This document shows, one piece after another, positions 32,107 to 48,362 of a stretch of DNA of 64,000 nucleotides (positions are counted from its first letter, which is position 1; each line of letters starts with the position of its first letter). The DNA is from Pandoraea faecigallinarum. GTDB lineage: Bacteria > Pseudomonadota > Gammaproteobacteria > Burkholderiales > Burkholderiaceae. The DNA lies in NCBI RefSeq assembly GCF_001029105.3, contig NZ_CP011807.3, forward strand, positions 3,658,001 to 3,722,000, read 5' to 3'. Both the position numbers and the translations under genes were made by a program. The notes under the pieces were generated by a model. That model was not told where the DNA came from. It worked only from the letters and a program-made list of their open reading frames with translations, and ran no database searches.

Positions 32107-32820
32107 ATGTCTGCCTTGATGCATTTACTCGAAACCATTCACGACGACTGCAGCGGAATAACCGACTCGCAGAAGCTTTTTCAGCAAATCGATTCATTTT
32201 CGAAGCGCATCGGGTTCGAATTTTGCAGTTATGGCTTTCGCCATCATCGCAGTGCTACGCAATCGGAAGTTCGCGTCTTCGACAGTTACCCTGAAGGCTG
32301 GATGGCGCACTATGGCAAGTGCGGGTATCTCGACGTCGACCCGACGGTCGCCGTAGGCGCTCACACGGAAAGCCTCGTGTTGTGGCGCGACCCGGCATTG
32401 CCCAAGGCCGATGCGCTGTGGCGCGACGCGCATGACTTCGGTCTGAACCACGGCATCGCGCGCTCCAGTTGGGGGCCGCACGGAGAGTTCGGTTTGCTGA
32501 GTTTCAGTCGTTCGACCGAATCTCTCACTCCCGTCGAACTGAATTCGTTGCAGGTTGGCATGGGCGTGCTGGCGAACTACACCCATGAATCGATGAGCCG
32601 CCTGCTGCGCCCGCAGCGCCCTCCTTTCGACATCACCTTGCTGTCGGTGCGCGAGCGCGAGGTGCTGCTATGGACAGCCGAAGGGAAAACCGCCGATGAA
32701 ATCGGCGACATCCTCGGGATCTCGACTCGCACGGTCAATTTTCACATTCGCAACTGCCTCGACAAGACAGGCTGCCGGAACAAGGTGCAAAGCGCCATTC
32801 GACTCGTGATGTGGCGCTAG
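32107..32820 (+). CDS. LuxR-family AHL receptor / transcriptional regulator
   Basis: A 237-residue quorum-sensing regulator. The autoinducer-binding domain retains the invariant positions: W65 and Y69 (GWMAHYG), D78-P79 (DVDP), W93, and the GxG-like HGEFGLLSFS strand near 129. The GerE-type helix-turn-helix is at about 177-225 (LSVREREVLLWTAEGKTADEIGDILGI). GGAGG precedes the ATG at 32107; a longer in-frame GTG-type start at 32044 is less likely. It converges on the luxI gene, with 63 bases between stops. Orientation and content match the PpnR/PpnI pair described in Pandoraea. It most likely binds the CTG-N10-CAG boxes at 33690, 38428 and 48257. Confidence 0.93.
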   Translation: MSALMHLLETIHDDCSGITDSQKLFQQIDSFSKRIGFEFCSYGFRHHRSATQSEVRVFDSYPEGWMAHYGKCGYLDVDPTVAVGAHTESLVLWRDPALPKADALWRDAHDFGLNHGIARSSWGPHGEFGLLSFSRSTESLTPVELNSLQVGMGVLANYTHESMSRLLRPQRPPFDITLLSVREREVLLWTAEGKTADEIGDILGISTRTVNFHIRNCLDKTGCRNKVQSAIRLVMWR

Positions 32821-33630: not shown

Positions 33631-33689
33631 TCCAAACCTCCATCGTTAGTAGATGGAGGCAGATTAGCGACGCCGAAATGCAGCGAAAA

Positions 33690-33705
33690 CTGTCAAGGTT
33701 AACAG
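33690..33705. promoter_or_regulatory. lux box 1 (luxI promoter)
   Basis: CTGTCAAGGTTAACAG fits CTG-N10-CAG and differs at two positions from the identical core shared by lux boxes 2 and 3. It is centred 67 bases upstream of the luxI start codon, the normal place for LuxR-type activation. Confidence 0.8.
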
Positions 33706-33828
33706 GTACCCAAACGTCAACGCAACGCGCGAAGGATGCGCCTTCAATAATCACTCATCTGTCGCGCCGACAGCGATTCAATGTGTGAATTCGGCGTTTT
33801 CACGGTTTTTCGAGAGATTCACCGGCAC

Positions 33829-33856
33829 AAAAAAGCCACGGCGCGAACGCCGTGGC
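33829..33856 (-). terminator. Terminator of the large Ig-like repeat gene
   Basis: GCCACGGCG (33835-33843) and CGCCGTGGC (33848-33856) form a perfect 9-bp stem with a CGAA loop. Read leftward a TTTTTT tract follows. It lies 68 bases beyond the stop of the leftward 1459-residue gene. Confidence 0.85.
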
Positions 33857-33923
33857 GAATGCTGGTGAATCGACTTGGGGAGCGGCAATCGACGACCGGT
33901 CGAACAGCCACAGGTCCAAGCCG

Positions 33924-36900
33924 TCAACCGTTCAAGGGCGTAAGGGCGGCAGCCTTGGCAAAAGCCCCGTGACCCGGGCCCACTCCTGGGTTGCTGAGCA
34001 CGCAGCCGGACAGGGTAATGGTGTCCCACCCCATCTGACGGCCGTAGTTCGAGCCGCACCCGGCTTGCGACGATGCCCAATAGAAGAAGCTCTCCGGCCT
34101 CACCCCTCGCGAATAGACCTTCCTCAATACCGCGATTTCGGCGTCGCCAATACCGCGACCAACGCTATTGGCCCAACTGATGGCCTGCTGAATGCTAAGC
34201 CCCGGCACGTCCCAGATAATGAACTGGAAGACGTTGCTCACCACCACCGTATAGGACTTCGACGTACCTCTGCTGTCTTTTACGGTAATGGTTGCGGTGC
34301 CGTTTCTTTCGCCGACAACCTTGCCTTGCGCATTGACCGACGCAACGGATGGCTTGCTCGAGGTGTAGGTATACGGCGGCACACCGCCCGTGGCGGCACG
34401 GGTCTGCGCATTTCCGGGGGCGTCCTCTCCGGTCTTCGGCCAGCCCGTCTTGATCGCCAGACCGTTCAACACCATCTGCGTATCCGGCAACGTGAAGTCC
34501 GGAATCACTTCCATCTTCACCGTCAGTTCGGGGAACGGGATGGCGTTCGCCTCGTTGCTGCTGCCGTCGAACGTCACCTTCATCTCCACCCTCAGGTTCG
34601 ACCCGTTGCGCAACGCCTCAAGGCGCGCTCGCGGAAGCGCCCTGTTGATCCCGGCGTCGACTTCCGCGGCAGTGACACCCACGCCCTCCGCCAGCACGAT
34701 CGTATCGCTCGCGCCGCTCGCCAGCGTGCCATGGCACCGCAACCAGAATTTCTGGTCAGCGGCGATCGCCGGCCACTGTTTGACCGTGACCGCGGCGTTG
34801 CCGGTGAAGCTCGACAGTTTGAGCTGGCCGTTGGCCGCTTGCGGAATGACAGGCGTCGGCAGGTCTCCCGCCGCGAAGTCGTTGATGGTCAAATCGAGAA
34901 TCCCGGACGCGGTCGTCTGACCGTTGCGAGTGACCGTGTAATAGACGGGCAGGGTCTTGCCGATGTAGGGCAGCACCTTGTCCGCGTCTACGGGTATGTC
35001 AACGGTGCCGCTCGCATCTCCCGCCACCGTATCGAACGACGCGTCGCCATCCCACACGAGCTGGATCGAGTCGGTTGCCTGCATGTCCTCATAGGTCACG
35101 CGAACCGTGACACCGTCGATCGCATCGATCGCGTCGAGCTCCCCGTCCTGTGCTTCGGTCACTTCCGGCGCAAACAGGTCCAGACCGTCCGAGAACCGGA
35201 GCGTGCGAACGCGGAACACCACGGCGTCGGCCTCGTTCGGGCTGCCATCGAACGTCACCTTGACCTCAAGCGTGAAGTTCGAGCCGTCCTGCAGCTTTTC
35301 CAAATCTACGCGGCGCAGCGTCCGGTTGAGTGGCTTGCCCGCTTCCTCGGCGGTAACGACATGCCCGCTCTCCAAGGTGATCGTGATTCGGCTGCCGCTG
35401 ATTTGCGTCCCATGCAAACGCCACCAGATGCGCTGGCCTTGCGCCATGAGCGGCCACGCCGGCTGCCGTGCCGTGGCGTCTCCCGCGAAATTGGACAGAT
35501 TGAGTACGCCGCCCTTTTGCTCGACGACCGTCGCGAGCGGCAGATTGCCCGGCAGGAAATTCTCGACCACGAGATCGAGCACCGGCGACTCGACGTCGAT
35601 GCCTTTGCGCGTAACCACAAACGACACCGGCACGGTACGTCCGAGGCACATCGCGACCTTGTCCGGTGGCACGGTAAACGTCACCGTCCCCGACGGATCG
35701 CCCGGCACGGCGGGGAAGCTCGTGTCGCCGTCCCAACTCAGCTGAATCGAATCTTCCGGCGACATGTCTTCATAGGTGACGCTCACGGTAGCGCCCTGTT
35801 TCGCATCCACGGGTTTGAGCACGTTGCCCGTGGCTTCGAGCACCTCGGGCGCACTGAGGCCGGGTAACGGCAGTGCAACGCGCAGGTTCAGCACTTCGGA
35901 CTTGAATACCCGATTGCCGCGCGTGATCGTATAGCGCACGGGCACGATTTCTCCGTGCCAACGGTCGATCACATCCTTTTCCACGCGGAATGGATAGTCC
36001 ATTGGCGTGACGATGCCGATACTGTCGTGGTACTCGCGGCTGCCTTCTCCCCAGTAAAGATCGATTTCGTCGCCGGGGCGCATGTCGCGGAATTCCGGCA
36101 CGACCGTCGTCGCGCCGCGCAGATACGCATCTTCCGGCAGGAAATCGCCGTCGGCCTCTTCCACGTGCGGGGCGGGCCAGATTTCCGCTTCGTGAATCTC
36201 GATGAGCAGTTCCTTCGACGTCTGTTCGCCGTCGGCGTTGGTCACCGTGTAATACACCGCGACCATCCGGTTGTTCAGCGCGAGAATCTTGTCCCTGGGC
36301 ACGTACATGTTGACGGGGTTACCCACCATGTTGTCGGTGATCGCAAAGGACTGGATATGCTCGCCGGCGGTATTTTCTCCGAACCGGATCTTCACCACAT
36401 CGTTGCGCGCCATCCCTTCGTATGGCGCGACCCGCACTGTCGCATCGATTTCCAGTTCGCTCGGATCGAGGATGCCGTCGACCGCTTCCACCACAATCGG
36501 CGCGGGCAGCGTAGTCTCCAGCGGCAGCACCACGAACGTCTTCGCCATCGATCCGGTCTTGCCGCCCGAGGCATGCGTGACTTCGTACAGCACGTTGACG
36601 GTATCGCCGCCCATCGCGTTGATTTCGATGACGTTCCGGTCGGCTACCACGACGATATCGCCCACCGCCGTCACCTGTTCGGTACCGGTCTGCTGGCCGC
36701 CCTCCGAAGTGCCGAGCCAGAACCAGGTGACGCTGTCACCTACCGCCATATCGGGCCAGGCCGGAATCGTCACTCTGGCGCCGGCGGGCACGAAGATCGG
36801 ATTCAGCTCGCCGTTCACTTCCCCTTCGACCAGCGGCGCCGGCAAGGCGTCGGCCTTGAACACGGTCAGCGTCAGTGTGGACGACTCCCTGAGGCTCGTT

Positions 36901-38303
36901 CCGGACTGCACCGTGTACATCACGTTCACCGTACCGCCACCCAGCGGCCCGATCTTGCTGTACGGCACCGTGAAGCGAAGCGGCTCGCCCACGTTCTCGC
37001 GACTGATTTCGATGATGTCGAAGTACGTCACCGGATCACCGCCCTGCGTGGTTCCCTCCCACCGCAAACGCAAAAGATCGCCCAACGCCAGATTCGGCCA
37101 CGGTTCGACGTCGACCGTGGCGCCATTGGGCACGTCTGCGGGGTCCAGCGTCGCGTCGTCGGACGCTTCGAGCACGCGCGGCGCGGGCAGCAAGACCGCC
37201 GTGCCCTCGACGGCGAAATTCGAGCGATACGAGCGTCCCTTGTGCACGCCGCCCGCGGTGCTTACCCGGTAGTACAACGACCCTTGTCCGGGCACGATCT
37301 GCGCGAGCGTCGCATTCGGCAGATCGAACGACAGAATCACGCCGCCGCCGAGCGTTTGCGACGCCGTATAAGTGACCTCCAGCCCTTCGTACGATCGGCC
37401 TTCGAAGACGAGTATCACGCCATCGCCCTGCTCCATGTCACCATTTTTCATGATGATCACTTGCGCATCGGCGCCGTCGAGCAAGTCGTAATCGAGCACG
37501 TCGTTGCTGACTTCCACGACAGCGGGCGGGTCATAGATCGCGTCGCCCATTTCGACTTCGATGAATGAAGACAGCGCCCGCCCTGACCAGTTACTCACGG
37601 TGTCGCGGATTTCGTACGTCACGGCGACCGCCTCGCCATCGCCTCCCGCCTCGATCACTGCTGCGGGCACCATCAGGATCAGCGGTTTGTCAACCTGCGA
37701 TTCGTCGATGGGCGGCACTTCCCACGTCGCGGCGCCCCAGAACAGCTTGAGCCGGTCGCCGGCCGTCATGTTGAGCCACGGCGGAATCTCCACGCGGATG
37801 CCCTCCGGGGGAACGGCATCGATCGGCCCGGGGGGCAGAATCGCCTTCTCCAGCCCTTCGTTGACCGGCCACGTCGACTGATCGGGATCGTCACCGCCGG
37901 GCACCGAGAGTTTCACGAGCACAGACGTAATCGGCGACGGTGCCGGCGCGGGGTCGCCGAACGACGAGATGCGCTCGTACCAGACGTCCACGATGCCGTC
38001 GCCCACGTCGATGACATCCTTTACCGGCACCTTCATCTGAAAGTTCGGGTCGTTGGGAGACTCCACGATCATCAGATCGACAATGTGACCGACGCGCCCC
38101 CAGTACAACCGCAAGGTATCCCCCTTGAGCATCAGCGGGTTCCATGGCACCAGCACGTCGAGATAGCCTTCGAGATCCGCGTAGACCTCCTGTTTCCGGA
38201 TACCGCCGTTGGCCTCGGCCAAAGGCACCTGCGGTGCCTGGAGCACCAGGGTTTCCTCGAGTTTGTCCGGCGCTCTGAGGAAGAAACTGTCGCGTGTATT
38301 CAT
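33924..38303 (-). CDS. Large Ig-like repeat protein (1459 aa), putative quorum-sensing target
   Basis: A 1459-residue, acidic, Cys-poor protein made of about eleven divergent repeats of 100-115 residues. The common pattern is PAPxVxEAxxGxLDP, GATVxVPxW, DMxxGDxVxLxWxG, then a second half with VPxxK/D and VxVxYTVT. A bacterial Ig-like (Big2-type) domain follows at about 1270-1350 (SSKPSVASVNAQGKVVGE). The unique C-terminal domain of about 105 residues has two Cys (AGCGSNYG, SGCVLSNPG), with an FFYWASSQ segment before them. Repeats 8-9 and 10-11 look like a duplicated pair. There is no signal peptide or membrane anchor: it begins MNTRDSFFLRAPDKLEETLV. The fold suggests a surface or extracellular adhesive filament, but the export route is unknown. 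Its start is 123 bases from the palindromic lux box 2, shared with the divergent 789-residue gene. Confidence 0.8.
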   Translation of the reverse strand: MNTRDSFFLRAPDKLEETLVLQAPQVPLAEANGGIRKQEVYADLEGYLDVLVPWNPLMLKGDTLRLYWGRVGHIVDLMIVESPNDPNFQMKVPVKDVIDVGDGIVDVWYERISSFGDPAPAPSPITSVLVKLSVPGGDDPDQSTWPVNEGLEKAILPPGPIDAVPPEGIRVEIPPWLNMTAGDRLKLFWGAATWEVPPIDESQVDKPLILMVPAAVIEAGGDGEAVAVTYEIRDTVSNWSGRALSSFIEVEMGDAIYDPPAVVEVSNDVLDYDLLDGADAQVIIMKNGDMEQGDGVILVFEGRSYEGLEVTYTASQTLGGGVILSFDLPNATLAQIVPGQGSLYYRVSTAGGVHKGRSYRSNFAVEGTAVLLPAPRVLEASDDATLDPADVPNGATVDVEPWPNLALGDLLRLRWEGTTQGGDPVTYFDIIEISRENVGEPLRFTVPYSKIGPLGGGTVNVMYTVQSGTSLRESSTLTLTVFKADALPAPLVEGEVNGELNPIFVPAGARVTIPAWPDMAVGDSVTWFWLGTSEGGQQTGTEQVTAVGDIVVVADRNVIEINAMGGDTVNVLYEVTHASGGKTGSMAKTFVVLPLETTLPAPIVVEAVDGILDPSELEIDATVRVAPYEGMARNDVVKIRFGENTAGEHIQSFAITDNMVGNPVNMYVPRDKILALNNRMVAVYYTVTNADGEQTSKELLIEIHEAEIWPAPHVEEADGDFLPEDAYLRGATTVVPEFRDMRPGDEIDLYWGEGSREYHDSIGIVTPMDYPFRVEKDVIDRWHGEIVPVRYTITRGNRVFKSEVLNLRVALPLPGLSAPEVLEATGNVLKPVDAKQGATVSVTYEDMSPEDSIQLSWDGDTSFPAVPGDPSGTVTFTVPPDKVAMCLGRTVPVSFVVTRKGIDVESPVLDLVVENFLPGNLPLATVVEQKGGVLNLSNFAGDATARQPAWPLMAQGQRIWWRLHGTQISGSRITITLESGHVVTAEEAGKPLNRTLRRVDLEKLQDGSNFTLEVKVTFDGSPNEADAVVFRVRTLRFSDGLDLFAPEVTEAQDGELDAIDAIDGVTVRVTYEDMQATDSIQLVWDGDASFDTVAGDASGTVDIPVDADKVLPYIGKTLPVYYTVTRNGQTTASGILDLTINDFAAGDLPTPVIPQAANGQLKLSSFTGNAAVTVKQWPAIAADQKFWLRCHGTLASGASDTIVLAEGVGVTAAEVDAGINRALPRARLEALRNGSNLRVEMKVTFDGSSNEANAIPFPELTVKMEVIPDFTLPDTQMVLNGLAIKTGWPKTGEDAPGNAQTRAATGGVPPYTYTSSKPSVASVNAQGKVVGERNGTATITVKDSRGTSKSYTVVVSNVFQFIIWDVPGLSIQQAISWANSVGRGIGDAEIAVLRKVYSRGVRPESFFYWASSQAGCGSNYGRQMGWDTITLSGCVLSNPGVGPGHGAFAKAAALTPLNG

Positions 38304-38425
38304 GACCGACCTCCGGTTTGCAGCACGATTGCTGCGGGTGGAATCCGGCCCCTGACCGTGCGATCGGAGACCGGGAGAAACGCAGACACGGGGTCTCCAT
38401 CTCGCCACCGCAACCGTCGCCCGGC

Positions 38426-38445
38426 AACTGTCAACGTTGACAGTT
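38426..38445. promoter_or_regulatory. lux box 2 (between the divergent Ig-like genes)
   Basis: A 20-base perfect palindrome with core CTGTCAACGTTGACAG (38428-38443) and flanking AA/TT. It lies 63 bases upstream of the rightward gene and 123 bases upstream of the leftward gene. One LuxR dimer here could control both. Confidence 0.85.
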
Positions 38446-38507
38446 TTCCGTCGCGAATCCGGGCGCGACACTCTGCAAACCATTCGCCCACACCGTGGAG
38501 GTTCATC

Positions 38508-40877
38508 ATGAGCGTCAAGCGTAAGGCCCTGCTTCGCACCGATAATGCCCCGGCTCGTCAGAGCACGCGCTCCCCCACCCGCGAGGGTCGCGTTGCCCCG
38601 GATCCCGCCGACATCGATGAGACCGTCGTGGTCGCCAACCCCGCCGACTTCCCGCCCGACGCGGCCCCGTACAACCTGATCAGATCGGATACGTTGACGC
38701 AACCGCTTCTGTTCAAGGGACCGATAACGGCCGCCATGTATCCCAGGTGTCTGTTTCGCGTCTACTACGACGGCGGTCTGGACACCGCGGAACACGAGAT
38801 GCAACCCGCTGATTTCGAGAACGGCTACATCTCCATGACGCTCGCGCCCGAGGTCTACGCCCGCGAAGACGGCATGCATACCTTCAAGTGGGACTGGAAG
38901 TCCGATACCGAAACCAACTTTACAGACCCTTCCGATGTCACCTTCTTCACCATCGACCGGCAGAAGCCGGGAGTGCCTATGCTGGGAGACATCGAGTTTC
39001 CCGACGATGTGCATGAGAATGGCCTGACGGATGCGCGCCTCACCGAGCTGGGCAACAAGCTTCCCGGCGAAGTGCCCAGCTATACGGACCGGATTCACGG
39101 CGACACGGCGGTGGGCATTGTGCGCAATATCGCCGGTGACGAAGAACGAACGGCGCCCTTTCAAATTCCCTACATGCAGGCGGGTGAACCGGTCGTGCTT
39201 GAATTCACGCGCGAGATGCTCGCGCGGCTTGGCGACGGGTTGCTGACTTTCACGTACATCGTGACGGACCTCGCGGGCAATGTGAGCGACGAATCCGAGC
39301 CGGTCGTCATCGACGTCTTCCTGAAGCCTGGCATTCCGGATCTCGATCCGCCGCTCGTACCGCTCTACGACGACGATGCCCCAACCCCGCCCGATATCAA
39401 GCTCATTGACGAAGTCGATGCACGCACGCCCGTCGAAGTGCACATCCCCGGGCATCCCGAACTGGCGACCGGCGACGTGTTCGTCGTATGGTGGGGAACC
39501 CGCGAGCAGCCTCCGGTCATCTTTACAGGCGACGACGCGAGTGCGCCCGTGATCCTGCAAATCAAGATTCCGTACGGCGAGGTCTCAGGCGAATGGGCAG
39601 ACGCCGCCCAGGACGCGGATGGCTTCGCAACCATTCCGGTCAACTACGTCGTCTTCCGCGCCAACAAGGAAGTCGGGCGTCCGCCGGCGCCTCATAACGT
39701 GGTGGTCAATCTGAGTCAGGCTGGTGGTGTCGACCCCGATCCCGAAACTCCCGAAAACGAAGCGCTGGGATTCCCGTACGTACACCATTCCCAGTGGAAC
39801 AGCGACCGGATCAATTACATCCCCGACGCATCGCTTCAGGAAGACCACGAGTTCTTTGTGCCGTGGTTCGCACGCAATCCCGACGGCACCCCGTCAGGCG
39901 ACGATGCCTTCCGGGGAGGCGACGATGTCATCGTCATGTACAACGGTGAGGTATTCGATGAACGTCCCGTATCGGGGTCGGACGTAAGCGCCAAACAGGA
40001 CCTGAAGTTTGTGTTGCCGTGGGAAGTGGTCAAAGCTGCGGGCAGCGGGATCAAACCGATCCAATATCTCGCAATACGGTATTTTGACGACAATCGCAGG
40101 GAAAACACGTCCGTTTCGCCGCCAGCCGACGTCGAGGTCGAGGACAGCAGCGACATTCCGGGCGGCCCAGACGGTCTGTTGCCTGCCCGCTTCGTTGCCG
40201 ACATCGTACGCTGGAGCGAAGTCTCGGTAGTGGGGCACGCCCCGCTGACTGTCAAAGCTTATGAAGGGATGCGAGTGGGCGACAAGGTGCGGGTCCATGT
40301 CACCGCCGACGAATTCTTTCCGAATGATCAAACCTACGGCGATCCGTACCCAAGAGCCGAATGGGGAGGCGACCAGAACAAGCATCCGCATCCGGTGTAC
40401 CCGCACGAGATCGTCGTCACAGACGACAATATCGATACCGACCTTACGTTCGGGTGGCCGCAGGAGCTCGTCCACTGGACCTATATTTACGGAATGGCGC
40501 GTATTACCTATTCCGTTACGAGGCCCGATGGCAAGCGAGCCGATGCACGTGCCGGGGCCGATCAGCGCACGGACGTGTCGCAGGCCGGGCAGCCCGAGCC
40601 CGACTCGTACGGCCTCACGGCGCCCCGGATCACATTCTCCGAAGCGAACCGGACAGGCGCCAGGAATTCGCCGCAACGGATGGCGGCGCTCAACGACTTC
40701 GCCAGCCAGTTCCGGACCAGCCGGCAGGCGCGCGCACATTTGCGCCAGCGCCGGATGCAGGCCGGAAAGGTCAAACACGCGGCTGTCGCTGCGCGCGACG
40801 ACAACCTCACGCCGATTCAGGCGAAGCTCCGTGAGATTGCCATGCGCCCGATCCCAAAGACCAAACGAAACGAGTAA
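38508..40877 (+). CDS. Ig-like repeat partner protein (789 aa), putative quorum-sensing target
   Basis: A 789-residue soluble protein. It shares the vocabulary of its divergent neighbour (VEVHIPGHPELATGDVFVVWWG, LTVKAYEGMRVGDKVRVHV) and has about six Ig-like beta-sandwich segments between residues 40 and 700. It begins with a basic, disordered stretch (MSVKRKALLRTDNAPARQ) and has no signal peptide. The last 80 residues are strongly basic and helical (MRPIPKTKRNE end, with RQARAHLRQRRMQAGK). I recognise no enzymatic motif. The two genes look like diverged products of one family. They are divergently transcribed from one perfect lux box, and joint action at the cell surface or in a secreted complex is inferred. 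Confidence 0.75.
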   Translation: MSVKRKALLRTDNAPARQSTRSPTREGRVAPDPADIDETVVVANPADFPPDAAPYNLIRSDTLTQPLLFKGPITAAMYPRCLFRVYYDGGLDTAEHEMQPADFENGYISMTLAPEVYAREDGMHTFKWDWKSDTETNFTDPSDVTFFTIDRQKPGVPMLGDIEFPDDVHENGLTDARLTELGNKLPGEVPSYTDRIHGDTAVGIVRNIAGDEERTAPFQIPYMQAGEPVVLEFTREMLARLGDGLLTFTYIVTDLAGNVSDESEPVVIDVFLKPGIPDLDPPLVPLYDDDAPTPPDIKLIDEVDARTPVEVHIPGHPELATGDVFVVWWGTREQPPVIFTGDDASAPVILQIKIPYGEVSGEWADAAQDADGFATIPVNYVVFRANKEVGRPPAPHNVVVNLSQAGGVDPDPETPENEALGFPYVHHSQWNSDRINYIPDASLQEDHEFFVPWFARNPDGTPSGDDAFRGGDDVIVMYNGEVFDERPVSGSDVSAKQDLKFVLPWEVVKAAGSGIKPIQYLAIRYFDDNRRENTSVSPPADVEVEDSSDIPGGPDGLLPARFVADIVRWSEVSVVGHAPLTVKAYEGMRVGDKVRVHVTADEFFPNDQTYGDPYPRAEWGGDQNKHPHPVYPHEIVVTDDNIDTDLTFGWPQELVHWTYIYGMARITYSVTRPDGKRADARAGADQRTDVSQAGQPEPDSYGLTAPRITFSEANRTGARNSPQRMAALNDFASQFRTSRQARAHLRQRRMQAGKVKHAAVAARDDNLTPIQAKLREIAMRPIPKTKRNE

Positions 40878-40951
40878 CATCTGGTGAAACAAAGTGCGCA
40901 GTGCAACGCGGGTTATGCGTGCCTGCGCACCCCATCCACCATTCCCACAAC

Positions 40952-40974
40952 GCCAGGGCGCCTGTCGCCCTGGC
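40952..40974 (+). terminator. Stem-loop just upstream of the ToxR-like gene
   Basis: GCCAGGGCG (40952-40960) and CGCCCTGGC (40966-40974) form a 9-bp stem ending 7 bases before the ATG at 40982. It may end the 789-residue gene's transcript, or mask the ribosome-binding site of the following gene, which has no visible Shine-Dalgarno. Confidence 0.55.
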
Positions 40975-40981
40975 ACTTTCT

Positions 40982-41857
40982 ATGGTCAAGTTTCTGCTCG
41001 GCGGGACCGCCGGCTTCGATACGGATACGTTCGCCCTCGTTTCCCGGCACGACAGCACGCAAAGCGTGCCACTCGGCGCCGCCGCCGGCCGCTGTCTGCA
41101 GGTGCTGCTCGAAGCCGACGGCGAAATCGTCACCAAGAAAACACTGCTCGCCCAGGGCTGGGAACAGTACGGCGCCGTCGTCTCCGAGAACAACCTCAGC
41201 CAGGCCATCGTTCGCATTCGCAAAGCGCTGGTACAACTCGGAGCCGACCCCGCCGTGTTGATCACCTTGCCGCGCATTGGCTATCGCATTACAGGCGTAG
41301 AGCGCGTGTCCGCCCATAACTCCGGACAATGGACAACGCCCTCCGGCATCGTTTCCGAAACCGGAACACACGTCGAAGACGAGGAAATCACCCAAAAATC
41401 AACGCCGTCCGAGGAAATTTCTACGCGGGAAACGGAAGCCCTCGATGGGATCGACAAGGCGGCGCCGCGCAAGGCGGTGCGTCTCGATGCAGCGGTCTTT
41501 GCGTGGATCGCCGCCGCGGCGCTGAGCACCGGCATCGCGTTGTGGGTCATCCCGAAGATTCACGGCGACCTGCGCTCGAACGCCCCCGAAGTTCGATGGG
41601 AAGCGCGCGATGCCAGCCCCGGCAACCGTGTGTTCGTGCCACCCGAACTGAAACAGGTCAAGTCCTTTATCGACGAGCGGCTCGACAGGCTTGCCCGCAC
41701 GCCGCCGACATCCGTCGACGACCATGCGAAGCGCCTCGTGTATCTGAACGGTTCGCAAAGCAATGAAGTGGCCAGCTACTTTCTGTGCCTTCGCCCCATC
41801 ACGCAACCGGATCCCGGCTGCGTGTCGTATCTGCTGATCGATCATCTTTCGCCATGA
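40982..41857 (+). CDS. ToxR/CadC/MarT-like membrane-anchored winged-helix regulator
   Basis: A 291-residue inner-membrane regulator. An N-terminal OmpR-type winged helix runs from about 28 to 103 (LGAAAGRCLQVLLEADGEIV, NNLSQAIVRIRKAL, TLPRIGYRIT). A Ser/Thr/Glu-rich cytoplasmic linker follows, then a single transmembrane helix at about 169-191 (DAAVFAWIAAAALSTGIALW). The periplasmic part of about 100 residues has two Cys (FLCLRP and PDPGCV). Topology and size match ToxR, CadC and MarT. It overlaps the FidL-like gene by ATGA, as MarT-type regulators pair with a small membrane protein. Likely targets are the surface-protein genes around it. The signal sensed is unknown. Confidence 0.88.
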   Translation: MVKFLLGGTAGFDTDTFALVSRHDSTQSVPLGAAAGRCLQVLLEADGEIVTKKTLLAQGWEQYGAVVSENNLSQAIVRIRKALVQLGADPAVLITLPRIGYRITGVERVSAHNSGQWTTPSGIVSETGTHVEDEEITQKSTPSEEISTRETEALDGIDKAAPRKAVRLDAAVFAWIAAAALSTGIALWVIPKIHGDLRSNAPEVRWEARDASPGNRVFVPPELKQVKSFIDERLDRLARTPPTSVDDHAKRLVYLNGSQSNEVASYFLCLRPITQPDPGCVSYLLIDHLSP

Positions 41858-42408
41858 GTTTTTCCGCCGCTTCCGCCCCCCTCCCGCGTCGATTTGTCCG
41901 GCGAATTTCGCGCCGCGCGCTGTGGCTCGGCGTGACCGCCGCCGTCGTCGTCCCCTGGCTTGCCGCTTGGCCGCTTGTGCCGGACAGGCGCATCGACTGG
42001 CAATGCCTGTCGGATATCGAATTCGACACGGTGACACCGCACGGCAAGTTCGTGCAGGTTACCGGCACGATGGCGTCGGACTACTCGCACAATGGCACGG
42101 GAACGGCGCGTTTTTCCGGCCGCATACGTCAGGTCGACACCGTGAATGTAGTCCATCGCATGGCCGAATTCGACTATGTGGCGCTCGACAGCATGGTGCG
42201 CGTGAACACCATACGTGCGAGCCGGCTTGCCACCGACGATGCGCCGGACGACCTCGTCTTCCAGTATGTCTACGGTGGTTTCCGCCCCGGGCATACCGAC
42301 TATTTTCAGGCGATGCGCACTGGCGCTGGCATGAGCGTCGGCTTCAACCAGCAGCCTCGCGTGTTCTGCGCAGCGCCGCCTGGCGCTCGGGCCGCAGGCG
42401 CGCGATGA
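41854..42408 (+). CDS. FidL-like small membrane protein
   Basis: A 184-residue protein with one N-terminal membrane anchor (LWLGVTAAVVVPWLAAW, about 28-44) and a periplasmic beta-rich domain. The pattern WQCLSDIEFDTV, VTGTMASDYSHNGTGTARFSGRI, and a late single Cys (VFCAAP) fits FidL-like proteins. In Salmonella SPI-3 fidL neighbours marT, and ToxR-type regulators often work with such a partner (ToxS-like). It is translationally coupled to the regulator by the ATGA overlap. The family call is made from pattern memory and not from a search. Confidence 0.7.
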   Translation: MSFSAASAPLPRRFVRRISRRALWLGVTAAVVVPWLAAWPLVPDRRIDWQCLSDIEFDTVTPHGKFVQVTGTMASDYSHNGTGTARFSGRIRQVDTVNVVHRMAEFDYVALDSMVRVNTIRASRLATDDAPDDLVFQYVYGGFRPGHTDYFQAMRTGAGMSVGFNQQPRVFCAAPPGARAAGAR

Positions 42409-42431
42409 ATCGGGGCAATTGTCGAACTCGC

Positions 42432-42463
42432 AAAAAAGCCTGACAGCGGCAAGGCTGTCAGGC
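42432..42463 (-). terminator. Terminator left of the IS, originally for autotransporter 1
   Basis: GCCTGACAG (42438-42446) and CTGTCAGGC (42455-42463) form a 9-bp stem. Read leftward a TTTTTT tract follows (42437-42432). Removing the IS would put it about 65 bases behind the stop of the first autotransporter gene, so it is probably that gene's terminator. Confidence 0.8.
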
Positions 42464-42536
42464 CAAGGTGCACCTGCGGTGCACGAAGTGGGGCGGTCAT
42501 ATGCACCACACCCCTTCGGAGATTCTTAGAGCCGGT

Positions 42537-43013
42537 TTACGATCTCCTGAGCAGCAGTGCCAAAAAGGCGAGATGGACAAACTGCAAGCTGGTGTTGAGC
42601 AAACGCTCACAGTTCTTCCATAAGCGCCGGTTCTTCTCCAGCCAGGCGAAACTGCGCTCGACGACCCAACGCTGCGGCAGGACCTTGAAAGTATGCAGTT
42701 CGCTGCGTTTGGCGATCTGCACCGTGACCCGCTCGCCCAAGATCTCGCGCACGCCCTGCGCGAAGGGTTCGCCCACGTAACCGCCATCGACCAGCACACT
42801 TTGCACCTGTCCCAAGCGAGGCTTGCCGTGCTCGAACGCCAGCAACGCTCCTTTGCGATCGTTCACCTCGGCAGTGGTTACCGCCACGGCGTGCGGTAAG
42901 CCCTGCGTGTCTACGGCAATATGACGCTTGATGCCCGACACCTTCTTGCCCGCGTCATAACCCTTATGCGCTGCCGTGTCAGTGTTCTTCACGCTCTGCG
43001 CGTCCACGATCAA
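42537..43013 (-). CDS. IS5-family transposase, second frame (OrfB)
   Basis: The downstream frame, 158 codons. It opens MIVDAQSVKNTDTAAHKGYD, the first catalytic Asp region of the DDE domain. It continues with VDGGYVGEPF (second Asp) and ends with PQRWVVERSFAWLEKNRRL, the Y/W(2)R(3)E(6)R signature holding the catalytic Glu. It is out of frame with OrfA and overlaps it by 35 bases. In the IS427 group such frames are joined by programmed ribosomal frameshifting, so the ATG at 43013 need not be a true start. All three acidic residues are present, so the element may be active. Confidence 0.88.
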   Translation of the reverse strand: MIVDAQSVKNTDTAAHKGYDAGKKVSGIKRHIAVDTQGLPHAVAVTTAEVNDRKGALLAFEHGKPRLGQVQSVLVDGGYVGEPFAQGVREILGERVTVQIAKRSELHTFKVLPQRWVVERSFAWLEKNRRLWKNCERLLNTSLQFVHLAFLALLLRRS

Positions 43014-43335
43014 GAACGTCGTGCTGGCGCTGCGTCCCTGTCTTGTGCGCGCCGCGCCAACCTGATTTTTTGAGTGCCTGCTCCAGCACGCTCACGCCGT
43101 GCTGGTCAGGCTGACTCCATTTGCTGAAATACGCGTAGACGGTTTGCCACTTGGGAAACTCGCTGGGCAAGAAGCGCCATTGGCAACCGGTACGCAACAG
43201 ATACAGCACCGCGCAAAACACCTCGTACAAGTCCACCGTCGTGGGCTTCGTGCGCCGGCGCACGCTGCGCAACAGCGGCTCGATCTCCGAGAACTTCTCT
43301 CGGCTTATGTCACTCGCGTATTTCTTTCTCGTCAT
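42979..43335 (-). CDS. IS5-family transposase, first frame (OrfA)
   Basis: The upstream frame, 118 residues. It has the helix-turn-helix-containing N-domain of IS427-group transposases: EKFSEIEPLLRSVRRRTKP, then LYEVFCAVLYLLRTGCQWRFLP and WQTVYAYFSKWSQ (DUF4096-type). After residue 95 the frame degenerates into basic sequence (TGTQRQHDVLDRGRAEREEH), where the ribosome would shift into OrfB. It starts 42 bases inside the right terminal repeat of the IS. Confidence 0.88.
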   Translation of the reverse strand: MTRKKYASDISREKFSEIEPLLRSVRRRTKPTTVDLYEVFCAVLYLLRTGCQWRFLPSEFPKWQTVYAYFSKWSQPDQHGVSVLEQALKKSGWRGAHKTGTQRQHDVLDRGRAEREEH

Positions 43336-43377
43336 CCTCGAATTATCAGGGATGACCAGAAGATCGCAAACACGTTC

Positions 43378-45627
43378 TTAGAAGCGGTAGCGCACCCCCA
43401 CATTGACGCCCCACGGTTTATCCAGCCGCTTGCCGAGCGAATAGCTCGCGTCGGCGTAGGCCTGGAGATTCTTCGTCATCTGCGCGGCCAGACCCGCACC
43501 GACTTCGACGCGCGTGCCCGAGATATCCTGCTGCAATTCGATGCCGTTCACGCGCACCGAGTTGCTGCGCACGAACTCTTGGGTGAGCGCGAGCTTGCCG
43601 TAAGGCTGGAACGTGCCTTTCGCGGTCTCGAACGTCTTGCCGAAATGCATGCCGATTGTGCCCAGCAGCGACTTCGTGCTGCTCGTCTTGGCATGCATGC
43701 CGTTATCCAGCGTGAAATCCGAGCCGTTGGCCCACATGCCCGTCACTTGCCCGAACGGTTCGATGAACCAGCGGTTGCCGAACTCGATCTTGCGGCCGAC
43801 TTCCGCCGAGAGACCCACGCCATGATTGACGAAGTCGCCCTTGCTGCGCATGCCGTCGCTCATGCGCACATCCAGTTCCGAGCCAAAGCGGTTGTACTTG
43901 AGCACACCGTCGAAGTAGTAGCCGTTGTTGCCTAGCCAGGTCGCGTAAGCGCCCACCGTGTGGCTGTCGATCGTGCCACGCGAACCGTTATTGAATTTCA
44001 ACTGGCTCGTGCTGGTACCGAACATGCCGCCGACGAGCCAGCGGCCCGCATCGTTTTGCGCAACGACCCTGTCGCTACCGCCGACCACCCCCCATTGATT
44101 CTGGTTGTAGCCGGAACCCGCCGAAGGACGCGCGTTGTACTTGCCGCCGAATACGCGCGCCCAGGTACCCCCTTTCTCGCCGTCGCCCAGACGCACTTCG
44201 CCCAGTCGCGTGCGCAGCACCGTGTGCTCGCCGAGCCACGCCGTCGGCAGCGCGCTGTGCACGTTCACCACCGCGTCGGTACCCGGCGTAATCTCTTCGG
44301 TTTTCTCCAGATACCACGATTGCTCGCCCCCGGCCTCGCCGCTGGACTTCAGTTCGTAGGAATACACACCAGCATCGACCTTGCCGCCCACGAGCGAGAA
44401 CTTGCCGTCGCCACCGCCCTGCTCGACCAGAAGCTGCGTCTGGACGCCGCCTTCCGTCCCCGTATTCCTGACGTGCAACTGGTGCTCGCCGGTGGCGTTC
44501 TCCACGTCGAGCAGGTCGGCGCCGCCCAGTTGCAGATCGGCTTGCATCTGGAAGGTGCCGTTGCCGGACAGGTCAGCGACGTCGAGCGTATGGAACGTGC
44601 CGTCGGCCGCCGTGCCGTGAATGTCGATCAGGCCGCCGTCCATCGTGATCCGGGCCATTTCCTGGTCGGCCGTCAGGGCCCATTTGCCGTTCGAATTGAC
44701 CGCCAGCGAATCGACGTTGATCAGCTTGCCGGTGATCGATCCGTAATTTTGCAGCGTCAGATCCATCGTCGCACTGCCATCGCTCACGATGTCGCCGGTG
44801 AGCTGGGAATTGTCAACGGTCACGGTCGAATCGACGCCCTTACTGAGTTCGATCAGCACGCCGTCGCTGCCGGTGATTGTCGTGCCGTTCGCAATCATGA
44901 GCGACACCCTCTTGCCCTCGACATGCGCCGCGTCGGCCTCGATCAGAATCCCCGCGCCGTTCCTGCCTACGATATGTGTGCCGTTCAGCACAGCGAAGGA
45001 TTCGTCGCCTAGCGAACCACTCGACAACCAAAGTCCCTTGTCGCCGGTGATCGATCCGCCATTGACGAAAAGCTGGGCGTCGCGAACGTAGGCCCCGATA
45101 TTGTGTCCGCCGAGGAACCCTTCGTTGGCGGTGACGTGCGAATCGTTGAGCACAAGCGTCGCCTCTCTGCCCATATGAACGCCAGACCCTTTACCGCTGA
45201 TCGTGCTGTTTGTGACCGTTGCGGTGGAAGGCTTTGCGCTCCCCGCGGCCTGTCCCAGCCATAGACCACTTCCGTTGTGACTCGTGACACTGGAGTTGGT
45301 AATCGTCGCGGACGCACTTTCGAGCATTACGCCGCTGTTCGCCCCGACAGTGCTGACGACCTGCGCGCCGTCCAGGATCAGGCGGCTGTCCGCGCCGACA
45401 TGGATCGAGTTGGTTGCCGTGCCCGGTTTGACGGTCAACTGACTGCCATTGACCACGCTCCAGACTTCGTCCGGATTGCCGGGGGCATCGAGCTCGTGCT
45501 CTCCCCCGTCGTCAATCCTTGCGGCGTGGGCGGTCGCACTCAGGCAGGCGAGAAGAATCGCAACGGCTCCTGCGATTCGGCTCGGGAAAGGCGTTGCGGC
45601 GATGCGCCGCAGATTTGTCGTACGCAT
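43378..45627 (-). CDS. Autotransporter 1 (type V secreted surface protein)
   Basis: A 749-residue monomeric autotransporter. The signal peptide is MRTTNLRRIAATPFPSRIAG, extended through AVAILLACLSATAHA. A right-handed beta-helix passenger rich in G-S-x-V/I-T-x-x-T turns (ATITNSSVTSHNGSGLWLG) runs to about 450. A linker region and a beta-barrel of about 270 residues follow, ending VGVRYRF with the C-terminal aromatic of outer-membrane barrels. It resembles pertactin/AIDA/MisL-type adhesins; no protease or lipase motif is visible. The ATG at 45627 is chosen over an upstream TTG. The IS lies directly against its stop codon. It is paralogous to autotransporter 2 but has no lux box in its 150-base AT-rich promoter region. 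Confidence 0.9.
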   Translation of the reverse strand: MRTTNLRRIAATPFPSRIAGAVAILLACLSATAHAARIDDGGEHELDAPGNPDEVWSVVNGSQLTVKPGTATNSIHVGADSRLILDGAQVVSTVGANSGVMLESASATITNSSVTSHNGSGLWLGQAAGSAKPSTATVTNSTISGKGSGVHMGREATLVLNDSHVTANEGFLGGHNIGAYVRDAQLFVNGGSITGDKGLWLSSGSLGDESFAVLNGTHIVGRNGAGILIEADAAHVEGKRVSLMIANGTTITGSDGVLIELSKGVDSTVTVDNSQLTGDIVSDGSATMDLTLQNYGSITGKLINVDSLAVNSNGKWALTADQEMARITMDGGLIDIHGTAADGTFHTLDVADLSGNGTFQMQADLQLGGADLLDVENATGEHQLHVRNTGTEGGVQTQLLVEQGGGDGKFSLVGGKVDAGVYSYELKSSGEAGGEQSWYLEKTEEITPGTDAVVNVHSALPTAWLGEHTVLRTRLGEVRLGDGEKGGTWARVFGGKYNARPSAGSGYNQNQWGVVGGSDRVVAQNDAGRWLVGGMFGTSTSQLKFNNGSRGTIDSHTVGAYATWLGNNGYYFDGVLKYNRFGSELDVRMSDGMRSKGDFVNHGVGLSAEVGRKIEFGNRWFIEPFGQVTGMWANGSDFTLDNGMHAKTSSTKSLLGTIGMHFGKTFETAKGTFQPYGKLALTQEFVRSNSVRVNGIELQQDISGTRVEVGAGLAAQMTKNLQAYADASYSLGKRLDKPWGVNVGVRYRF

Positions 45628-45791
45628 AATGGTCGTTTCCAAAAAGAAATCAAAAACGACGCGAAGCGTACTAAAAATCGCTCAAAAACCTCCAATGAAA
45701 TGGAGAAAAACATCAATATTCACGATAATTCATCGATATTCCACCATATTCACCAAAACACACCCACCCCCTTTGAGGGTCCTGAATCGGC

Positions 45792-48053
45792 TCAGAACGT
45801 GTAGCGAACGCCCAGTTGCACGCCCCACGGCTGGTTGATATGACGTCCCACGCTCGACTCGACTTCCGAGTAGATCTGGAGATTGCGGCGCACCTGACCC
45901 GTCACCCCCGCACCGAACTCGAAGCGGGTGCCGGACAGATCGTTGTTAAAGGAGATCGCGTTGACGGTGACCCGATTGCTGGAAATGAATTCCTGCACCA
46001 GGGCGAGCTTGAGGTAAGGTTGAATGACACCACCGCCGCTCAATGACACGGTCTTGCCGAACGCCGCGCCGACTCGCGCCTGCACCGATCCCGTATGGTC
46101 GGTGTTCGACGCCATGCCGTTGGTCAGGGTGAAGTCGTCGCCGCCCACGCGAAGCAGCGCCAGATGCACGTATGGCTCGACGAACCAGTCGTTCGCGAAT
46201 CTCATGTGGCGGCCAAACTCGAACGTAATGCCGAAACTGTTTTCACCAAAGCTGCCATGCGCGCCTTCGCCGTCGCTCATGATGACATTGGCGTCGTTCT
46301 GAAAGTGGTTGTAGCGCGCCACCGTCTCGAAGTAGTACCCCGTCGGCCCGAGCCATGTGCCATACAGACCAGCCGTATAGCTGTTCACGCCGCCGGTCGA
46401 ACCGCCATCGAAAGACAGCTTGCTGTGGCTGGTGCCGAGCAATGCCCCCACGAGCCAAGTCCCGCCCCAAGCCTTGCCGACAACAGCGTCGGCACCGCCC
46501 ATCACGCCATATTGCGTCTGGCGATAATCCACGCCGGAGACCGGTGTCGCATGAAACTGCTTGCCGAACGTGCGGACCCACACGCCGCTGTTGCTCTGAT
46601 CCGCGATACGCACATCGCCGAGACGGCTTCGCAGGATAGCCTGTTCGCCGTACCAGACCGTGGGCGCCACGCCCGAGATACCGATGACGGTCTGGGCGCC
46701 CGGGGTCAGATCCGGACCGCCCGGATCGCCGGGATCGTGCGGATCGGTCGCGAGCACCCAGTTGTTGCCGTCCTGGCGCAGGTCATAGCTGTAGACGCCC
46801 GCGTCGACCTTGCCGCCGACCAGCGAAAAGGCCGCACCGCCCCCGCCAGTCGTGACCACCGTCAGCGGCGTCAGATCGGTGGGCTCCGCCCCGCTATTGC
46901 GAACATGCAGTTGATATGCGCCTGTGGCGTTGCCCGTGACCGCCAGCAGGTCGCCGGTGTGCGCAGCGATGTTCGTGCCCATCCGGAAATCGCCATTGCC
47001 GGACAGAGAGCCGAGCGTCAGCGTGTGAAACGCGCCAGTGCCGGCGGCCGTGCCGGAGATATCGATGGTGCCGGCATTCATTGTGACGGTAGGCACCGAA
47101 TTGTTGCCGGTGAGCATCCATTGCGATCCTGAATTCACCGCAAGCGAGGTCAGGTTCGTCAGCGATCCAGTCAACGACGTGTTGTTCTGCAAGGTGAGGT
47201 TGACAACCGCGGTGCCATCGCCGGTCACATTGCCGGTGAGCGGCGTATTGTCGATCGTGATCGCCGACGTGATCGGGCCGACGGCGCTGATGAGGTTGCC
47301 GTCCGACCCCGAGATCCTGGTTCCGCCGTCGATCAGCAGCGTTGCGGAGCGGTTCCCGGTTTGGCCAGGCGACGGTTGAATCAGGATCCCGGCCCCGTTC
47401 GTGCCGACGATATTGGCGCCGGAGAGGGTCGTCGACGACGATGATCCGCCGGCCCCCGTAGTGACCCAGACGCCGTTCCGGCCTGTCGACGATCCGCCAT
47501 TCATGATCACGGTGGAATCGAAATTCGCCACCCCGGCGTTGAACTGCCCACCGCCGACCAGACCGGTGCCTGTGCTCATCGTGCTGTTGTTCAAGGTGAG
47601 CGTGCCCTTCCAACTGACCTGCGCGGCAATGGCGAAACCGGAAATCGTGCTGCCGGTGACGGTGGCGTTTGGTGCAATCGCATTCGTGCCTAGCGTTCCG
47701 AGCGCCAATCCCGCGCCAGCCGCGCTGGTGATCGTCGAATTCGTGATGACACCGGAGGTATTCAGAAGCTGCACGCCAGGGTTGTTCCCGGTAGCGCCGA
47801 CCGTCGCGCCATTGAGCGTTAGCGTGCTGCCCGTATCGACCACGATGGCGTTGGTCGCCGCGCCCGGCTCTACCGTGAGCGACCCGTTGTTGTGGACCTG
47901 CCATGGTTCGTTCGGGTCGCCCGGCGCCGTCACTGTCTGCGAAACGCCATCGACGATGCCAGCATGCGCCTGAGCCGCCAGACAGGCCAGCACCACGCCG
48001 ACGGCCAGGGAGATCTGATGACGCGGCGGCGTCGGGGACTTTGACGTTTTCAT
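45792..48053 (-). CDS. Autotransporter 2 (type V secreted surface protein), putative quorum-sensing target
   Basis: A 753-residue autotransporter paralogous to its downstream neighbour. The signal peptide ends ACLAAQAHA at about residue 31. The passenger of Gly/Thr/Ser-rich beta-helix coils (NNGSLTVEPGAATNAIVVD at the start) mirrors autotransporter 1 (VNGSQLTVKPGTATNSIHV). The barrel includes VWVRTFGKQFHATPVSG and ends LGVRYTF. A Pro/Asp-rich linker (DPHDPGDPGGPDLTPG) separates passenger from barrel. No enzymatic motif is seen, so an adhesin role is favoured. Lux box 3 lies about 200 bases upstream of its start with no gene between. Confidence 0.9.
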   Translation of the reverse strand: MKTSKSPTPPRHQISLAVGVVLACLAAQAHAGIVDGVSQTVTAPGDPNEPWQVHNNGSLTVEPGAATNAIVVDTGSTLTLNGATVGATGNNPGVQLLNTSGVITNSTITSAAGAGLALGTLGTNAIAPNATVTGSTISGFAIAAQVSWKGTLTLNNSTMSTGTGLVGGGQFNAGVANFDSTVIMNGGSSTGRNGVWVTTGAGGSSSSTTLSGANIVGTNGAGILIQPSPGQTGNRSATLLIDGGTRISGSDGNLISAVGPITSAITIDNTPLTGNVTGDGTAVVNLTLQNNTSLTGSLTNLTSLAVNSGSQWMLTGNNSVPTVTMNAGTIDISGTAAGTGAFHTLTLGSLSGNGDFRMGTNIAAHTGDLLAVTGNATGAYQLHVRNSGAEPTDLTPLTVVTTGGGGAAFSLVGGKVDAGVYSYDLRQDGNNWVLATDPHDPGDPGGPDLTPGAQTVIGISGVAPTVWYGEQAILRSRLGDVRIADQSNSGVWVRTFGKQFHATPVSGVDYRQTQYGVMGGADAVVGKAWGGTWLVGALLGTSHSKLSFDGGSTGGVNSYTAGLYGTWLGPTGYYFETVARYNHFQNDANVIMSDGEGAHGSFGENSFGITFEFGRHMRFANDWFVEPYVHLALLRVGGDDFTLTNGMASNTDHTGSVQARVGAAFGKTVSLSGGGVIQPYLKLALVQEFISSNRVTVNAISFNNDLSGTRFEFGAGVTGQVRRNLQIYSEVESSVGRHINQPWGVQLGVRYTF

Positions 48054-48362
48054 ACGGTTCTCCTATGCAAAGGCATGACAAACCGATCGATACGACAAGA
48101 CCGGCGGACGCCCCCACCAAGCGATCCGCCGTAAACCAGGCCCCCGGGATCACGGACTGTCACGCCGCTTGTTGTGTGCAGGGAAAACCCTATGCAATCA
48201 TGGAGTTGCGGCGTCTTTATTGATTGAAAGTTAGGTTCCGATGCACGAAACCGCACCTGTCAACGTTGACAGGTGTCATCGCGGGGCTTTCGTGCAATGC
48301 TCGGGGCGCGGCCATCCGGGCGCCTATGGCGTGCGGGTACGGCGCAGGGTGGAAGAACTGTC
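48054..48362. other. Promoter gap of autotransporter 2
   Basis: A 309-base gap between autotransporter 2 and the glycosyltransferase stop codon. It contains lux box 3 (48254-48275) and otherwise no convincing gene; a 68-codon minus-strand frame at 48050-48256 shows no family resemblance. Confidence 0.6.
48254..48275. promoter_or_regulatory. lux box 3 (autotransporter 2 promoter)
   Basis: A 22-base perfect palindrome. Its core CTGTCAACGTTGACAG (48257-48272) is identical to that of lux box 2, and it is flanked by CAC/GTG. It lies about 200 bases upstream of the autotransporter 2 start codon, implying a long 5' leader if it sits at the usual -40 position. Confidence 0.85.

Follow-up and report, generated by a model that had tools for sequence, protein, structure and literature searches.

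Quorum sensing in Pandoraea has been described in a survey of the genus (PMC6691176), the accessible part of which reports the lux box of luxI, the production of N-octanoyl-homoserine lactone (C8-HSL) and the existence of LuxR solos, places LuxR1 in a cluster with CepR and SolR, and leaves the downstream roles of the system for further research; P. faecigallinarum DSM 23572 is among the strains that it lists as not producing acyl-homoserine lactones (AHLs). In this study, we have analysed a 64,000-nucleotide (nt) stretch of P. faecigallinarum DNA, referred to here as the window (C1:3658001-3722000 of G000, a genome of 5.73 Mb in 3 contigs), in which luxR1 and luxI lie close to three palindromes, two genes for immunoglobulin-like (Ig-like) repeat proteins and two autotransporter genes. 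An earlier note on this DNA had read the palindromes as lux boxes that define a quorum-sensing regulon of surface proteins. From the analysis of this and related genomes, we consider it very probable that LuxR1, encoded alongside, uses these palindromes as operators and controls the neighbouring genes through them.

The closest described system, PpnI/R1 and its relatives (PMC6691176), likewise comes from Pandoraea and has convergent luxI and luxR1 genes, a 20-bp lux box upstream of luxI and C8-HSL production; however, in the portion of that survey available to us the box is reported for luxI only and no orphan luxI is recorded, whereas here boxes were found at many genes and in one genome (G026) luxI was found but LuxR1 was not. 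The CepIR system of Burkholderia cenocepacia (PMC1766932) likewise combines a LuxR-family regulator with an inverted-repeat box at a luxI-type promoter and with boxes predicted genome-wide, and the CepR consensus, CTGTAAAAGTTACCAGTT, resembles the Pandoraea sequence CTGTCAACGTTGACAGTT. Unlike the cep box, as given in the accessible text, the Pandoraea box is less degenerate, with 6 exact copies in one genome, and the targets listed there (siderophore, protease, aidA and others) differ from the present ones: beside luxI itself lie genes for tandem Ig-like proteins and for autotransporters of the pertactin type. No published Pandoraea quorum-sensing regulon was found in the literature searched, most subscription journals being beyond its reach, and neither the exact 16-mer nor its inner 14 bases gave a match in the literature search.

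The exact core, CTGTCAACGTTGACAG, occurs twice in the window (Table 1), and by eye its flanks widen to perfect palindromes of 20 bp (38428) and 22 bp (48257); the luxI promoter carries CTGTCAAGGTTAACAG, with 2 mismatches to the core. All three palindromes satisfy the pattern CTG-N10-CAG, and they are the only window matches to the core at up to 3 mismatches, compared with 0.19 on average and at most 2 in 100 shuffles. The positions, extensions, two-change luxI version and pattern fit claimed in the earlier note were therefore borne out by the window scan and the flanks, and the neighbours that it had named (luxR, luxI, the divergent large pair and autotransporter 2) agree with the Pfam domains and gene calls.

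The genome scan that the earlier note had called for gave 6 exact copies of the core, none with 1 mismatch, 5 with 2 and 22 with 3, a total of 33 compared with 14 for a reversed control; composition predicts 0.0007 exact copies. The chance that at least two of the six exact sites fall in a given 16 kb is 1e-4. Since 3 of the 11 own-genome sites with up to 2 mismatches fall in this 16 kb, the sites are enriched here yet not confined here, and the proposal that three boxes define the regulon did not survive: relatives hold 1 to 13 sites at up to 1 mismatch. Four of the 22 sites with 3 mismatches were examined and all four lay inside called genes; sites of this class were therefore left out of the box counts. 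A looser pattern, CTGNCANNNNTGNCAG with 1 mismatch allowed, was dropped as uninformative (176 matches versus 266 in the control). The identity of the two window cores might suggest that the palindromes arose by chance or belong to a repeat element that has spread through the genome by copying, but six copies against an expectation of 0.0007 already contradict this explanation, as do the flanks of 136 sites, which split into 40 dissimilar groups, and the 15 genomes of the genus that are free of the box at up to 1 mismatch; we regard it as having next to no chance of being correct.

Across the genus, the box (up to 1 mismatch) is present in 17 of 32 Pandoraea genomes, and the reversed control in none. 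A luxI homolog is found in exactly the same 17 genomes, and none of the other 15 is boxed; with independent labels the odds of such an overlap are 1 in 5.7e8, although the species are related. Orthologs of LuxR1 (at least 65% identity) were found in 16 of the 17 boxed genomes, including our own; the 15 box-free genomes yielded none, and more distant LuxR-type proteins were found in 14 of those 15. All 16 genomes with LuxR1 hold 3 to 13 boxes, and multiple boxes are seen in LuxR1 genomes only. This distribution argues that the box follows LuxR1 across the genus. It also bears on the possibility that LuxR solos (LuxR2, LuxR3 or a LuxR-type protein of contig C2), and not LuxR1, are the main proteins that bind the boxes. 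Our genome does encode four Autoind_bind proteins, but LuxR types that are approximately 25 to 36% identical to LuxR1 in long alignments occur in genomes that are box-free at up to 1 mismatch, and LuxR1 alone among the LuxR proteins seen fits the box distribution, the C2 protein not being part of that comparison; we therefore think it improbable that the solos are the main ligands of the box. The fourth Autoind_bind protein is encoded at C2:267555-267926, on a contig that is probably a plasmid; no quorum-sensing gene on a plasmid is reported in the accessible part of the Pandoraea survey (PMC6691176).

The same association was observed outside the genus. Of 150 Burkholderiaceae genomes (15 from Pandoraea and 135 from elsewhere in the family), 17 carry the exact 16-mer; 7 of these belong to Pandoraea and the remaining 10 to two other genera. 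Each of the 10 non-Pandoraea copies lies upstream of a luxI homolog (37 to 40% identity), and a luxR homolog (43 to 48% identity) is nearby at all 10 loci. The luxI promoters of these two genera therefore carry the identical 16-mer, 61 nt before the start codon at locus L260 and at a similar distance in the others; they differ from Pandoraea in that LuxI is only 37 to 40% identical, an extra gene was called between luxR and luxI at 9 of the 10 loci, and each genome has one exact copy, compared with several in Pandoraea.

Placement relative to genes and promoters is also consistent with operator function. The sites analysed (n = 136) comprise 125 from the genomes of 16 relatives, at up to 1 mismatch, and 11 from our own genome, at up to 2. 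Only 3 of the 136 run into a called gene, in each case close to the 3' end of that gene, in DNA of which 82% is called coding. Of the 17 genomes with a luxI homolog, 16 have a box (up to 2 mismatches) upstream of luxI, the exception being G004, in which the promoter has been lost; in 14 genomes the distance from the box to the luxI start was measured and ranges from 54 to 63 nt, and the other two promoters, those of G026 and G028, were inspected manually. Of 272 strand-sides, 49 have a TANNNT motif exactly 23 nt past the box, whereas the 42 other offsets average 0.64. When similar promoters were grouped and each of the 40 groups was represented by its first member, the motif appeared at offset 23 in 17 of them (random choice of members gave a mean of 16.1); the baseline was 0.19 per other offset and the expectation from composition was 0.66. 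In the 30 groups without an own-genome site, it was found in 11, with a mean of 0.15 elsewhere. In class II lux promoters the box is centred near position -42.5. The fixed spacing of TANNNT would place the centre of the Pandoraea box near -42.5, adjoining the -35 region in the class II lux geometry, with transcription starts that we infer from this spacing.

It could be argued that the box is the operator of another regulator, for example of the TetR, GntR or LysR type, that happens to adjoin luxI: symmetric 16-mers are also typical of TetR and GntR operators, and some boxes stand beside metabolic genes (thiolase and enoyl-CoA hydratase). However, such a regulator would have to explain why the box tracks luxR1 and luxI in 32 genomes and why every one of the 10 exact copies found outside Pandoraea is upstream of a luxI homolog, and the -10 spacing suits an activator at -42.5. 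We judge this explanation very improbable, marginally more so than binding by the solos. The reading of the palindromes as LuxR-type operators, as put forward in the earlier note, gains support from the co-occurrence, the luxI copies outside the genus, the intergenic placement, the -10 spacing and the recurring target families; taken together, these form strong computational evidence that the palindromes are LuxR-type operators and not chance sequences.

Several observations weigh against the proposal that LuxR1 acts through these boxes. The genome counts treat related species as separate: on a quickly built rpoB tree covering all of the 32 genomes except G014 and G022 (30 in total, the G017 row having a very long branch), the luxI/box label changes approximately 5 times, 4 of them forced, and a paired sign test on the label changes gives only p 0.125. 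The offset-23 rule was first spotted by eye, in promoters of our own genome and in those of luxI in seven relatives, and the held-out set without own-genome groups may still contain some relatives' luxI promoters; in the held-out groups, offset 1 was also slightly in excess (1.9, the largest other value), and TANNNT is absent at offset 23 in 23 of the 40 groups. No gene was called within 700 nt on either side of 23 of the 136 sites. LuxR2, LuxR3 or the C2 LuxR may share in binding the boxes. Finally, LuxR1 binding, AHL dependence, activation as the direction of control and the transcription starts are all deduced from sequence. On the other hand, some of the 23 sites without a called gene do have small frames behind them.

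We propose that LuxR1 with its AHL would bind each 16-bp box, the centre of which would lie approximately 42 nt ahead of the transcription start, and would recruit RNA polymerase to the -10 element 23 nt further on, as at a classical class II lux promoter. LuxR1 would thereby amplify luxI expression and switch on the divergent Ig-like genes, the autotransporter gene or genes and dispersed further genes. An alternative is that LuxR1 represses some promoters, or that a single member of the divergent Ig-like pair is controlled from the 38428 box; the minus-side -10 element there, CGAGAT, is weak in our genome, and the spacing of the plus-strand gene is luxI-like (64 versus 59 nt). The position of the box upstream of, and not over, the -10 element suits activation, however, and TGAGAT or TGATAT stands at the same minus-side place in some relatives. 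We consider repression or one-sided control unlikely, although it is by some way the most credible of the alternatives.

The predicted synthase of the window is 63 to 90% identical to 7 other Pandoraea LuxI proteins and keeps the residues that are invariant among 8 aligned Pandoraea LuxI proteins, itself included. A 9-nt tandem repeat at 33221-33284 gives the protein approximately 21 low-complexity residues more than its close relatives have, in a loop that differs in length from species to species. That this insert has broken luxI was considered and rejected, given the length-variable loop, the nature of the repeat and the retention of the conserved residues.

Four Pandoraea genomes depart from the usual arrangement. 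G026, an 89% complete draft, has luxI with a 1-mismatch box and no further box at up to 1 mismatch; neither the genome search nor the 11 kb surrounding luxI (C159:34000-45000) yielded a LuxR1, and no Ig-like or autotransporter match was found at the thresholds used. Its luxI, an apparent orphan, sits beside a GT9 gene. In G004 (C5:246000-258000), the luxI promoter and first ~45 codons have been lost and the remainder is fused to autotransporter sequence in an 854-amino-acid (aa) frame; luxR1 (89% identity) and 12 boxes are retained, and G004 is possibly a strain that listens without signalling. G013 and G021 are without luxI yet keep Ig-like and autotransporter genes; no box was found within 3 mismatches in the stretches read, or at up to 1 mismatch genome-wide. 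A substitute palindrome in G021, CTGACGTTAGCGTCAG, was rejected, as it lies inside an Ig-like frame if the upstream ATG is the start. In G021, C1:2906001-2926000 holds box-free Ig-like and autotransporter genes, with a divergent LuxR-type gene (a frame of 338 aa) nearby; the same stretch has, by eye, a halovibrin-like frame.

Target families were assembled by single linkage over script gene calls, in which starts and some genes are uncertain. Besides luxI, the most frequent targets are the Ig-like and autotransporter families: Ig-like repeat genes are flanked by boxes in 16 of the 17 genomes (47 box-gene entries, or 41 distinct genes, paired boxes giving duplicates), and boxed autotransporter relatives occur in 14. 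Other boxed families include one of ~315 aa (9 genomes), halovibrin-like proteins (8) and delta-60-repeat proteins (5), and RHS-repeat, ricin-B-lectin, extracellular contractile injection system (eCIS)-core or cold-shock-domain proteins lie behind boxes in some genomes; the cold-shock-domain gene was confirmed by Pfam in G002 and G019 and assigned by eye or clustering in G004 and G000. Relatives of the 1459-aa Ig-like protein of the window occur in 18 of the 32 genomes of the genus and homologs of the 789-aa protein in 16; matches to the two were found only in the 16 LuxR1 genomes, G013 and G021. In 13 of the 16 LuxR1 genomes, luxI, the Ig-like genes and the autotransporters lie within about 10 to 29 kb; the exceptions are G020, where luxI is distant, G004, where the Ig-like matches are elsewhere, and G028, which is split over contigs. 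In the window, a DDE transposase fragment (DDE_Tnp_1) lies at 42537-43007, between the Ig-like genes and the autotransporters.

Table 1. Features of the luxI region and other boxed sites of the P. faecigallinarum genome (window positions, except for the own-genome sites, whose neighbours are named from gene calls)
Feature	Position	Strand	Evidence or remark
luxR1, AHL receptor/transcription factor, 237 aa, convergent with luxI	32107..32820	+	Pfam Autoind_bind 108 bits, GerE 62 bits
luxI, predicted AHL synthase, 248 aa	32884..33630	-	Pfam Autoind_synth 39.6 bits (cut-off 24), profile positions 12-86 of 183
-10-like TAATCT, 23 nt after luxI box	33661..33666	-	
Putative luxI lux box, 2 mismatches to core, 59 nt before luxI ATG	33690..33705	-	
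Large Ig-like repeat protein, 1459 aa	33924..38303	-	Big_2 22.1 bits, just below 22.8 cut-off
-10-like CGAGAT (weak), minus side, 23 nt after 38428 box	38399..38404	-	TGAGAT or TGATAT in some relatives
Putative lux box between divergent Ig-like genes, exact core inside 20-bp palindrome	38428..38443	.	
-10-like GACACT, plus side, 23 nt after 38428 box	38467..38472	+	
Ig-like repeat protein, 789 aa, start 64 nt past box	38508..40877	+	AlphaFold2 model, PDB fold matches
Regulator downstream of Ig-like gene, ToxR/CadC-like by eye	40982..41857	+	Trans_reg_C 41.8 bits; hydrophobic segment near residue 172
Hypothetical gene after regulator, start uncertain	41932..42408	+	Gene call; without Pfam family
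Autotransporter 1, pertactin type, behind autotransporter 2 on same strand	43378..45627	-	Autotransporter 174 bits, Pertactin 87 bits
Autotransporter 2, pertactin type	45792..48053	-	Autotransporter 163 bits, Pertactin 111 bits
-10-like TAACTT, 23 nt after autotransporter box	48228..48233	-	
Putative autotransporter 2 lux box, exact core inside 22-bp palindrome, 203 nt before gene start	48257..48272	-	
Own-genome site, adjoins thiolase	116033		Gene call
Own-genome sites, adjoin pair of related hypothetical proteins, 243-253 aa	491048, 492105		
Own-genome site, adjoins halovibrin-like protein	1915030		Name taken from relatives
Own-genome site, small frames, one cold-shock-like by eye	2131970		Weak
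Own-genome site, VRP1/Big_1 protein of at least 1391 aa; enoyl-CoA hydratase on other side	2356785		
Own-genome site, 58-aa frame like short Ig-like gene of relatives	2820342		Weak
Own-genome site, adjoins 206-aa hypothetical protein	3551500		

The description of the targets as surface proteins is supported by domains for the autotransporters and not for the Ig-like pair. Both window autotransporters have Autotransporter and Pertactin domains and a hydrophobic N terminus (2.2 to 2.3 on the Kyte-Doolittle [KD] scale). As called by script, 5 of 14 members of the boxed autotransporter family pass 1.6 KD, a low count that probably reflects starts called too far downstream. By Pfam, Big_2 falls just under the cut-off for the 1459-aa protein and the 789-aa protein has no family; the AlphaFold2 model of the latter is a chain of beta domains with a helical C terminus (predicted local distance difference test [pLDDT] score of 80, predicted template modelling [pTM] score of 0.45), and its best PDB matches have low TM scores and are for the most part multidomain chains of the Ig/Fn3 type. 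No N-terminal hydrophobic segment of the Sec signal type was found in either Ig-like window protein, and the label "surface" is therefore only an assumption for these two; among boxed members of the family longer than 300 aa, 6 of 39 distinct proteins lie above 1.6 KD. The Ig-like proteins may be exported by a non-Sec route.

In conclusion, the locus appears to belong to a LuxR regulon of a known mechanistic kind, with an unusually uniform predicted operator and its chief candidate targets adjoining. A broader and more tentative idea, which we put at somewhat less than an even chance, is that luxR, luxI, the two Ig-like genes, the regulator and the autotransporters form one mobile regulatory island that is gained or lost as a unit, and that quorum sensing mainly deploys the tandem Ig-like family, a set of exported proteins largely without Pfam or NCBIfam models, together with halovibrin-like, lectin, RHS-repeat and eCIS-core-bearing proteins; this would be a density-controlled arsenal and not a metabolic regulon. 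The exact box, the fixed -10 spacing and the natural losses of luxI or luxR in sister species supply a target list and in-genus controls, and the question of what quorum sensing controls in the genus is therefore directly testable with a handful of promoter fusions. These results provide a list of candidate quorum-sensing-controlled genes in Pandoraea, a genus with emerging cystic-fibrosis-associated members.

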